From the NCBI RefSeq assembly GCF_015476545.1, contig NZ_JADMKV010000016.1:1-64000 (forward strand): 64,000 nucleotides of DNA, given 5' to 3'. The notes below the pieces were generated by a model. It had not been told where the DNA came from. It saw only the letters and a list, made by a program, of their open reading frames with translations, and did no database searches. Source of the stretch: Methylobacter sp. BlB1. GTDB taxonomy: Bacteria > Pseudomonadota > Gammaproteobacteria > Methylococcales > Methylomonadaceae. The position numbers and the translations under genes are program-made. Of this stretch, positions 4,968 to 8,973 are shown in pieces; position 1 is the first letter of the stretch, and each line of letters opens with the position of its first letter.

Positions 4968-5420
4968 GCTAATTTCCTCAATAAACTTAATAGGACTTTT
5001 GATTCAAGCCGATTATATTCGTTTTTCAAAATTCAGGCCCGATGTCGCCGGTATTATTTTGAAAAAAGTTGCATAAACTACTGATATTGTCTTATTCCGT
5101 CAAGATAATCTGGACTATTTTACTCGGTTCTTAATCAAATTGTAATTTTGACCTGATGTTAAATTACGGATCGTTTTTTTATGCCGTTTAACATCCAACA
5201 CTATAACTCTTTGACTGCCTCAGCTAAAGTGCGTATAGATGCGTATATGCTTGTGTTTAATAAACGCCTGCGGTCGAATATCCTATAGGGCGCAGGTAAA
5301 TTCGACTCTATAATTGCGCAATATCAATTTTGATATTGACTGTACGGTTTAATGCTTGTCTAGCCTATGACAATCCATTATTGTTCTAAAAATCACGCAC
5401 TCACATAAGGAATCGATAAA
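4968..5420. promoter_or_regulatory. Divergent intergenic region between ilvI and pfp
   Basis: The 453 bases between the divergent ilv operon and pfp hold no supported gene. They contain a perfect 20-bp palindrome CAATATCAATTTTGATATTG at 5319-5338, about 80 bases before the pfp start and so in its likely promoter region, and a direct repeat TGCGTATA at 5230-5237 and 5240-5247. A TATAAT occurs at 5309-5314 without a good -35. I found no leader peptide rich in Leu, Val or Ile codons ahead of ilvI. Confidence 0.5.
5075..5103 (-). promoter_or_regulatory. Possible sigma-70 promoter of the ilv operon
   Basis: On the minus strand TTGACG (5103-5098) and TAGTTT (5080-5075) are separated by 17 bases. 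This would start transcription about 100 bases ahead of ilvI. The -10 match is weak, so the call is tentative. Confidence 0.35.
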
Positions 5421-6680
5421 ATGTCAATAAAAAATGCTTTCTATGCCCAGTCAGGGGGAGTTACGTCTGTCATTAACGCCAGCGCATGCGGAGTTATAGA
5501 AACCGCTCGGCAGCATCCCGACAAGATAGGCACAGTCTATGCCGGCTACAATGGCATTATCGGTGCCTTAAAGGAAGAGTTGATCGATACCAGCCTTGAA
5601 TCGGATGCCGCCATTGCCGCGTTAAGACACACGCCGGCCGGCGGCTTCGGTTCCTGCCGCTACAAACTGAAGAGCCTGGAACAAAACAAGGCCGAATACG
5701 AGCGTCTGATCGAAGTCTTTAAAGCGCACAATATCGCTTACTTCTTCTATAACGGAGGCGGTGATTCTCAGGATACCGCCTATAAAGTTTCTCAGTTGGG
5801 CGACCAGCTGGGTTACCCAATCACTTGTGTCGGCGTGCCCAAAACCGTGGACAATGACCTGCCCATTACCGATACCTGCCCGGGTTTCGGCTCTGTCGCC
5901 AAGTACATCGCCGTTTCAATGCGCGAAGCCAGCTTCGACGTGGCCTCCATGTGCTCCACATCCACAAAGGTTTTCGTGCTGGAAGTCATGGGGCGTCATG
6001 CCGGCTGGATCGCCGCGGCAGGCGGACTGGCGGCCGATGCCGACAACGACATCCCGCTGGTTATCCTGTTTCCCGAAGTCAAGTTTGATCAGGCCAAGTT
6101 TCTGGCCAAGGTTGATGAAAAAGTCAAAGCGCATGGCTACTGTTCTGTCGTTGTCTCGGAAGGCGTGAAAGGCGCCGACGGCAAGTTTCTGGCCGAGGCC
6201 GGCGGCACCGACGCGTTCGGCCATGCCCAATTGGGCGGCGCGGCACCGGTGGTCGCCAATATTGTCAAAGAGGCATTGGGCTATAAGTATCACTGGGCGG
6301 TCGCCGATTATCTGCAAAGAGCCGCGCGCCATATCGCTTCGAAAACCGATGTGGATCAGGCTTATGCCATGGGCAAAGCCGCAGTGGAACTGGCTATCTC
6401 AGGCAAGTCGGCGGTCATGCCCACTATTGTCAGGACATCGGACTGGCCTTATCAATGGCATGTAGGCCATGCCGAGCTCAAGGATGTCGCCAACGTTGAG
6501 AAAATGATGCCGGCCGAGTTTATTTCGGACGACGGCTTCGGCATTACCGAAGCGTGCCGCCGTTATCTGCAGCCCTTGATCATGGGTGAAGATTATCCGC
6601 CTTATAAAAACGGCCTGCCGGATTATGTGACCATGAAAAAACAGATGATCGCTAAAAAGCTGGCTGACTTTTCCATCTAG
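5421..6680 (+). CDS. pfp: Pyrophosphate-dependent 6-phosphofructokinase
   Basis: It phosphorylates fructose 6-phosphate reversibly with PPi in the cytoplasm. The 419 residues show the phosphofructokinase fold, with GGGDSQDT at 112-119 and PKTVDND at 140-146. Asp115 sits where ATP enzymes have Gly (GGDGS) and Lys141 where they have Gly (PGTIDND). These two residues are the known determinants of PPi use, so donor specificity is well supported. AAGGA before ATG 5421 is a good ribosome site. In Methylococcus the gene lies beside a membrane H+-pyrophosphatase gene; here only remnants of that gene follow. Confidence 0.93.
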   Translation: MSIKNAFYAQSGGVTSVINASACGVIETARQHPDKIGTVYAGYNGIIGALKEELIDTSLESDAAIAALRHTPAGGFGSCRYKLKSLEQNKAEYERLIEVFKAHNIAYFFYNGGGDSQDTAYKVSQLGDQLGYPITCVGVPKTVDNDLPITDTCPGFGSVAKYIAVSMREASFDVASMCSTSTKVFVLEVMGRHAGWIAAAGGLAADADNDIPLVILFPEVKFDQAKFLAKVDEKVKAHGYCSVVVSEGVKGADGKFLAEAGGTDAFGHAQLGGAAPVVANIVKEALGYKYHWAVADYLQRAARHIASKTDVDQAYAMGKAAVELAISGKSAVMPTIVRTSDWPYQWHVGHAELKDVANVEKMMPAEFISDDGFGITEACRRYLQPLIMGEDYPPYKNGLPDYVTMKKQMIAKKLADFSI

Positions 6681-6725
6681 CTTGTCCTGGCCTTTTCTGA
6701 AGGGCAAGGAGGCAAGTACATACCG

Positions 6726-6757
6726 ATAACCACGGAAACCGGGCTTTCCGTGGTTAT
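6726..6757 (+). terminator. Strong hairpin after pfp
   Basis: ATAACCACGGAAA and TTTCCGTGGTTAT form a perfect 13-bp stem with a 6-base loop about 45 bases past the pfp stop. The following T run is short (TTG), so it may terminate weakly or protect the 3' end of the transcript. Confidence 0.6.
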
Positions 6758-6776
6758 TTGGTAAGGACAGACTCTG

Positions 6777-7017
6777 CTGAACACTATTCCGCCTAACCAG
6801 TCGCTCGTCTCTGCCCTGATCGTGTCTATCAGCGCTATTTCATACGGCCTGCGGTTTCGCCCTGGGTGCATCGTGCCCAGCACTGGCTGGCTTTACGGGT
6901 ATAAATATTTCGGTTCGCGCCAATGCCTGCACGGTTTAAGCCGCCCGTACGGGCACGTCCCATGCATTTCTGATCGCCATCCGGGGCGACTCCATTACCG
7001 GCTTAAAGCCGATGGAC
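6777..7017 (+). pseudogene. hppA: Membrane H+-pyrophosphatase HppA, N-terminal remnant
   Basis: The frame through 6777-6850 reads SALIVSISAISYGL, like the first helix of HppA. A shifted frame from 6847 then reads ACGFALGASCPALAGFTG, INISVRANACTV, a stop (TAA near 6937), AARTG and AIRGDSITGL. This follows the family order GF.IGA.CSG.AGY.GM.ISVRAN, then an AA..G..AL..AF..G..TG segment. About 40 codons between the two parts are missing, and no start-to-end frame survives. The position directly after pfp matches the pfp-hppA pairing of methanotrophs. The region is otherwise non-coding and ends at the 3' end of the convergent DUF2797 gene. Confidence 0.78.
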
Positions 7018-7836
7018 TTATTCTGCAGTAAACTCGACCTCGTAACCGGAAAATTTCCGAATATTAATGACGCCTGTGTCCAGTATCAGATACTGGCCTT
7101 TAATGCCATGCAGAACGCCTGCAACTTCGGATTGCGAATCAAGATTGAAGGATTTGACCTTTACCGGATAATTGTCGACCGGATAATGAATATCGACCGC
7201 TTGCTCATGCGCCAGAAATTCAATCGCCTGTGAGCCGAAGCGCTCGCTTATATCCGCCAGTTCCGTTTTGCACACGACGATCAGTTCATCGCGTTTGGCG
7301 GCCAGATCAACCGGCTCGGCATGATTTTTCAACATCTGCTGCCAGCTGGTCTTGTCGCTGACATGCCGGGCGATGGCGACCTCAACCAGGCCGGAAATAT
7401 AGCGCGACTGCGCTTTAAAAATCGGTAAGGCCTGTACGGCGCCCTGATCGATCCAGCGCGTCGGGATCTGACTCTGACGCGTAATGCCCACTTTGACGCC
7501 GGAGGAGTTGGCCAGGTAAACGATATGCGGCTGAAAACAAAATTCGGCCGCCCATGCCGGCTCCCTGCAGGTACCTGCCTCAAAATGGCAGGTTTCCGGC
7601 TTCACAATACACATATCGCATTGCGCCAGCGTAGAAAAACAGGGATAACAATAACCTTGGCTGAAACTTTTCTTGGTCTGCCTGCCACAATGCACGCAAA
7701 AAATCCTGCCGGTATAGGTAAGTTTGATCGGCTTGCCGATCAGCGGATTCAATGGAATCAGCCGATCCGTTAACGGCAATTCATACCGAACCGGATTGTC
7801 CAGTTGGGTATGCATTTTTCTTAATTGTCCCTGCAT
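7018..7836 (-). CDS. DUF2797 family protein
   Basis: The 272 residues match the conserved DUF2797 family, which has no settled function. A zinc-ribbon-like region with CVHCG, CYPCF and CDMC motifs lies near residues 45-75, followed by the conserved CREPAWAAEFC segment and the VYLANSSGVKVGITR segment, which recalls a GIY-YIG-like core (inference). AGAGGA precedes the ATG at 7836. It is convergent with pfp and divergent from ppa with a 75-base gap. The protein appears intact and is probably cytoplasmic and metal-binding. Confidence 0.8.
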   Translation of the reverse strand: MQGQLRKMHTQLDNPVRYELPLTDRLIPLNPLIGKPIKLTYTGRIFCVHCGRQTKKSFSQGYCYPCFSTLAQCDMCIVKPETCHFEAGTCREPAWAAEFCFQPHIVYLANSSGVKVGITRQSQIPTRWIDQGAVQALPIFKAQSRYISGLVEVAIARHVSDKTSWQQMLKNHAEPVDLAAKRDELIVVCKTELADISERFGSQAIEFLAHEQAVDIHYPVDNYPVKVKSFNLDSQSEVAGVLHGIKGQYLILDTGVINIRKFSGYEVEFTAE

Positions 7837-7911
7837 GCAGGTATTCCTCTAAAAAAGCTGGTAACAACTGATATAATGTCATGATTTGATAATCTACTAA
7901 AGAGGACAAGC

Positions 7912-8460
7912 ATGTCACTAATGAGCGTTTCGTCTGGAAAAGATCTTCCGAACGATATTAATGTTGTCATTGAAATACCTGCCTATAGCGACCCGGTCAA
8001 GTATGAAGTCGATAAAGAGACCGGCGCACTGATGGTAGACCGCTTCATGGGCACGTCGATGCAGTACCCGACCAACTACGGCTATGTGCCGCATAGCCTT
8101 TCAGATGACGGTGACCCGGTTGATGTTCTGGTGATTACGCCTGCACCGTTGTTGAGCGGTTGCGTGGTGCGCTGCCGTCCTATCGGCGTCCTGAAAATGA
8201 CTGATGAAGCCGGAGCAGATGCCAAGGTGCTGGCCGTGCCGGTGGAAAAGCTGACGCCGTACTATAACCGTGTGAAGACTTACGAAGACATTCCCGAAAG
8301 TAAATTAGCCAAAATCGCGCATTTCTTTGAGCACTACAAAGATCTGGAATCGGGCAAATGGGTCAAAGTTGAAGGCTGGTTTGGCCTGGAAGAAGCTCGG
8401 GAAGAAATCATGTCAAGCATAGAACGTTATAAAGCGGCCAAGAAGAAACCGCACTTCTAA
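7912..8460 (+). CDS. ppa: Soluble inorganic pyrophosphatase, family I
   Basis: It hydrolyses PPi to phosphate in the cytoplasm with Mg2+. The 182 residues contain the family signature [10 protein letters not shown], with the three metal-binding aspartates, preceded by [24 protein letters not shown] and the catalytic-region KVLAVP follow. AGAGGA lies 9 bases before ATG 7912. Its place between two hppA remnants is notable, because a soluble enzyme dissipates the energy of the PPi that pfp and an H+-pyrophosphatase would conserve. A hairpin follows the gene. Confidence 0.96.
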
Positions 8461-8482
8461 ACATTGTTATCAGCTATGCAGA

Positions 8483-8503
8483 GGGGGCGGTAGCAGCGCC
8501 CCC
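8483..8503. terminator. Hairpin between convergent ppa and moaE
   Basis: GGGGGCG and CGCCCCC pair around a 7-base loop in the 63-base gap between the two convergent stops. There is no T run, so it may act as a weak bidirectional terminator or 3' stabiliser. Confidence 0.5.
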
Positions 8504-8523
8504 ACAAACTATTCGGTCACCTT

Positions 8524-8973
8524 TCAGCGCTTATAACCGTCGGTATTTTTCTCGACCCAGCGCTGATCCTCCGACTTTAAAACTTCCTTTTTCCAGAAAG
8601 GCGCTTTCGACTTTAGCGCTTCCATAATATACCGGCTCGCATCAAACGCATCGCCGCGGTGTGATGTCCAGACCGCTACCAGCACGATGGGCTCATTAGG
8701 CAGAATATCTCCCACGCGATGCACGACCAGCGCATCGATAATCGGCCATTGCTGCTGCGCTTCGGCAACGATTTTTTCAAGCTGCTTTTCGGTCATGCCC
8801 GGATAATGCTCGAGATTCATGGCTTTGACATCATCGCCTTCATTGAAATCGCGCATTGTGCCGATAAAGAGGCTGGTCGCGCCGAATTTGCCGGCCATAT
8901 GCTGCGCCGCGTTTTGATAGGCCTGAACTTCATGCCAGGGATCAAAACCTTCCGCACAAATTTTTACTGTCAT
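8524..8973 (-). CDS. moaE: Molybdopterin synthase catalytic subunit
   Basis: MoaE takes sulfur from thiocarboxylated MoaD and inserts it into cyclic pyranopterin monophosphate to give molybdopterin. The 149 residues contain FIGTMRDFNEGDDV, LEHYPGMTEKQL, VVHRVGDI and the C-terminal KSKAPFWKKE with the conserved active-site lysines. moaD is immediately upstream with a 2-base gap, so the two subunits are co-expressed. Confidence 0.95.
   Translation of the reverse strand: MTVKICAEGFDPWHEVQAYQNAAQHMAGKFGATSLFIGTMRDFNEGDDVKAMNLEHYPGMTEKQLEKIVAEAQQQWPIIDALVVHRVGDILPNEPIVLVAVWTSHRGDAFDASRYIMEALKSKAPFWKKEVLKSEDQRWVEKNTDGYKR

Follow-up and report, generated by a model that had tools for sequence, protein, structure and literature searches.

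The window, the whole 64,000-nucleotide stretch that we analysed, comes from the one genome that represents this species, a 4.87-Mb draft in 227 contigs (99.97% complete) that carries a gene for a particulate methane/ammonia monooxygenase subunit. This gene and the relatives of the organism point to a probable gammaproteobacterial methanotroph. On the forward strand of the window, pfp (positions 5421 to 6680) encodes an intact 419-amino-acid phosphofructokinase (Pfam PFK, E 1.3e-49), presumably PPi dependent, as its family would imply. Downstream of pfp lie a hairpin with a 14-bp stem (6728 to 6755, forward strand) and then the remnant of an hppA gene, which extends from 6774 to about 7005. 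These are followed by an intact convergent gene for a DUF2797 protein (7018 to 7836, reverse strand; PF10977, E 7e-106) and by intact ppa (7912 to 8460, forward strand; PF00719, E 9.1e-60), encoding a soluble family I inorganic pyrophosphatase of 182 amino acids.

The sequence-only reading had recognized the remains of an H+-pyrophosphatase gene directly after pfp, and both a six-frame Pfam search of the whole genome and alignment to an intact orthologue bore this out. The H_PPase family (PF03030) matched the forward strand at 6835 to 7017 with an E value of 2.3e-8 and a score of 34.3 bits, above the curated cut-off of 29.7; the match covered profile positions 62 to 122 and contained one in-frame TAA. 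The orthologue was taken from the nearest congener (G002), whose Pfp protein is 99% identical and whose intact hppA (locus L063, 6872 to 8920) encodes 682 amino acids. At the DNA level, the remnant aligned to this gene in two pieces, both on the forward strand. The first (about 6774 to 6850, aligned to L063 6872-6963) corresponds to the first helix and lies inside a 5.5-kb colinear match to G002. The second (6851 to 7002, aligned to L063 7133-7291; blastn E 6.8e-56, 89% DNA identity) contains the in-frame TAA and reads GFALGA...ISVRAN...IAIRG.SITG in translation, and the earlier assignments to the first helix and to the GF.IGA..AG..GI.ISVRAN segment were both correct. The likeness to an intact K+-independent HppA is close where sequence survives, but only about 229 of 2,049 nucleotides (~11% of the gene) are left, and the active site is absent.

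The three congeneric species that we compared (G001, G002, and G003) all carry an intact hppA on the same strand, 172 to 180 bp after pfp, and the window is colinear with each of them on both sides of the remnant, with the DUF2797 gene followed by the soluble pyrophosphatase gene. Compared with G002, the start codon of the remnant has changed from ATG to CTG, and three deletions (15, 176, and 1,638 bp) have left the segments 6774 to 6807, 6808 to 6850, and 6851 to 7002. The 15-bp deletion sits after 6807, the 176-bp deletion forms the joint between the two aligned pieces, and the 1,638-bp deletion removed the remainder of hppA, including its stop codon, leaving a scar (7003 to 7017, forward strand) that runs as far as the stop codon of the DUF2797 gene on the opposite strand. 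The frame is disabled by the loss of the start, the TAA, a frameshift, and the deletion of ~89% of the gene; the frameshift, stop, and deletion noticed earlier were all present and were joined by the start loss and further deletions. The 176-bp deletion is flanked by ACGGCCTGC and ACGGCCGGC, copies of a 9-bp direct repeat that differ at one position, as would be expected if slippage or microhomology had produced it. In G002, the 7-bp repeat CCATTAC stands at either end of the stretch removed by the large deletion (L063 7281 and 8909), but the junction that it predicts is not the one observed, and we rejected it as the origin of that deletion.

Substitutions were polarised against G003. On the remnant's own branch, we counted 17 nonsynonymous and 4 synonymous changes over ~75 codons, versus 42 and 92 on the branch of the intact G002 gene (Fisher p 3.8e-5), and the counts for the remnant were compatible with a rough expectation under no selection (p 0.47), although this test is coarse because the remnant is short. 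Small as they are, these numbers fit neutral drift of a sequence no longer under selection at the protein level. The branch of the intact G002 hppA was longer in the tree, and relaxed selection on that gene before the loss was considered and rejected, since its ratio equals that of G003 (42:92 versus 22:51, p 0.88). Pairwise dN/dS against G002 was between 0.02 and 0.06 for pfp, ppa, ilvB, and ilvC (0.056 for ppa). The value for pfp, 0.025 (about 0.03), indicates strong purifying selection, and pfp is therefore still selected. Each of the four genomes compared within the genus (G000, the genome studied here, to G003) has pfp as its sole PFK-family gene, together with a gene for fructose-1,6-bisphosphatase. 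The view that the pyrophosphatase at this locus has been lost while the kinase is intact held.

A search for an intact hppA elsewhere in the genome found one. The six-frame search returned two PF03030 matches, the remnant and a gene on contig C143 (11806 to 13836; locus L066, 3789 to 5876; E 2.8e-257), which is syntenic, is shared by the four species compared, and has kept its catalytic motifs. With nonsynonymous-to-synonymous counts of 6:40 on the branch of this genome and 6:36 on that of G002, the C143 gene is under purifying selection. In the published classification (PMC10897367), Lys 12.46 and Thr 12.49 mark K+-independent H+-pyrophosphatases, and the combination of Ala 12.46 and Gly 12.49 with Glu 6.53 is given for Na+ and dual Na+/H+ pumps, both of which require K+. 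The pfp-linked HppA of all three congeners reads GNTTKAVT (Lys 12.46, Thr 12.49), a region deleted in the remnant, and the retained C143 protein reads GNTTAAIG and SDIFESY, giving Ala 12.46, Gly 12.49, and Glu 6.53. Judged by the signature of its orthologues, the lost copy would be of the K+-independent H+-pump type; the retained copy is predicted to be K+ dependent and possibly Na+ pumping, its signature alone not fixing the pumped ion. A tree of 54 HppA proteins from the order separated the K+-independent and the K+-dependent proteins into two fully supported clades, with every pfp-adjacent copy in the former. The C143 enzyme shares a Pfam family with the lost pump but differs from it in clade, in locus, in being intact, and in its residues at positions 12.46 and 12.49. 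The C143 gene did not join the K+-dependent copies of its own family but clustered with those of other families in the order; given the long branches, this suggests transfer or differential loss only tentatively.

The genome and its congeners also have two soluble family I pyrophosphatases, the second of which here is an open frame of 231 amino acids on contig C150 (146160 to 146678). Taken together, these results leave us in little doubt that the remnant arose by recent pseudogenisation of the pfp-linked gene for a K+-independent H+-pyrophosphatase, a loss that would have been tolerated because the K+-dependent membrane pyrophosphatase and the two soluble enzymes still cover PPi turnover. The ancestor of the genus would have had the order pfp, K+-independent hppA, DUF2797 gene, and ppa at this locus, with another hppA, of the K+-dependent type, at a different place. 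The pfp-linked hppA of this species alone would then have lost its start codon and gained a stop codon and a frameshift, and the three deletions, of which at least one fell between short direct repeats, would have taken ~89% of its length; pfp would meanwhile have stayed under purifying selection as the only phosphofructokinase gene. We infer that the surviving paralogue supplies the function of the lost copy, just as we infer the ion that it pumps. Since the second pump and the two soluble pyrophosphatases have been kept, the event is therefore well supported as ordinary, lineage-specific gene loss with a paralogue retained, and its physiological consequence should be modest. What would have changed is the set of pyrophosphatases: membrane PPi coupling is predicted to be kept, and its pfp-linked K+-independent version is gone.

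A stronger proposal, that the species relies solely on the unlinked, K+-dependent pyrophosphatase, that this enzyme is Na+ coupled, and that PPi-dependent glycolysis is therefore linked to the sodium gradient in place of the proton gradient, strikes us as unlikely. We also think it rather improbable that selection favoured loss of the H+ pump as an adaptive switch directing PPi energy into a K+-dependent Na+ or Na+/H+ gradient. The three signature residues of the retained copy match those of Na+ or dual pumps, and the lost type is already less constrained than the other hppA in the sister species (64:143 versus 27:142, p 0.001), as a switch of this kind would have it. However, this lower constraint fits plain dispensability, as it matches what may be the more dispensable of two copies; the retained copy shows no sign of change on the branches of this genome and G002, and the signature leaves the ion unfixed. 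An assembly or sequencing artefact, in which an intact hppA really lies here and was collapsed or misjoined by short-read assembly, might be suspected in a draft of so many contigs with an hppA paralogue elsewhere, but it is very improbable: the start loss, the 15-bp deletion, the TAA, and the excess of nonsynonymous changes are independent lesions, unlike the product of a misjoin, the paralogue belongs to a different clade and is too diverged for collapse, and the flanks of the remnant lie inside the contig and are colinear with three other species. Just as hard to sustain is the idea that destruction of the pfp-linked pump ended membrane-coupled use of PPi in the organism, given the intact C143 gene, which has its catalytic motifs and is under purifying selection. 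The earlier expectation that PPi use would change unless another hppA existed was right as to the type of pump, but coupling itself is not abolished, because that intact copy exists. Ordinary pseudogenisation with the paralogue retained is the reading that we carry forward.

Discussions of pfp and hppA usually treat the two genes as a coupled unit for recovering the energy of PPi. One report describes them as forming an operon in ammonia oxidisers (PMC5960693), another describes their co-localisation across many chemoautotrophs (PMC4949241), and a methanotroph model assumes that the pump supplies PPi to the kinase (PMC4658805). We examined 104 loci carrying this type of pfp, 24 in the order and 80 in public records, some of which were truncated. 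In 54 of them hppA lay near pfp, and it lay on the same strand within 1 kb in at least 39, a figure that is too low because loci in reverse orientation were counted as they stood. No hppA was found in 35 pfp loci that had at least 2.5 kb of sequence on the counted side. The pairing, which the sequence-only reading had described as common in methanotrophs, is recurrent but not obligatory, and it is far from universal. The present locus resembles the pair of methanotrophs, ammonia oxidisers, and sulfur-oxidising symbionts in its intact pfp and in the place and orientation of hppA, and a K+-independent hppA stands intact beside pfp in the three congeners as well as in other families of the order; the locus differs in that hppA is dead. 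Three species of the genus with both genes can be set cleanly against a fourth that lacks hppA yet has a strongly selected pfp, a natural comparison suggesting that the linked pump can be dispensed with where another type of pump exists.

The hairpin between pfp and the remnant (fold of −19.2 kcal/mol, z −4.3) has been kept in the four species with paired stem changes, according to an alignment read by eye. It is not a dispersed repeat, being present in a single copy in the genome, nor does it look like an ordinary intrinsic terminator, since it lacks a U-tract and was not called as one; an Rfam search of positions 5000 to 8600 gave no match. It might control the relative expression of pfp and hppA or terminate the pfp transcript. 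As for the distribution of pfp, most other genera of the same family are without this type and have only PFK-family matches of about 30% identity. The genus studied here, together with G016, carries a pfp similar to the one found in other families of the order, and the genus has no second PFK; it looks as though one type of pfp has been replaced by another.
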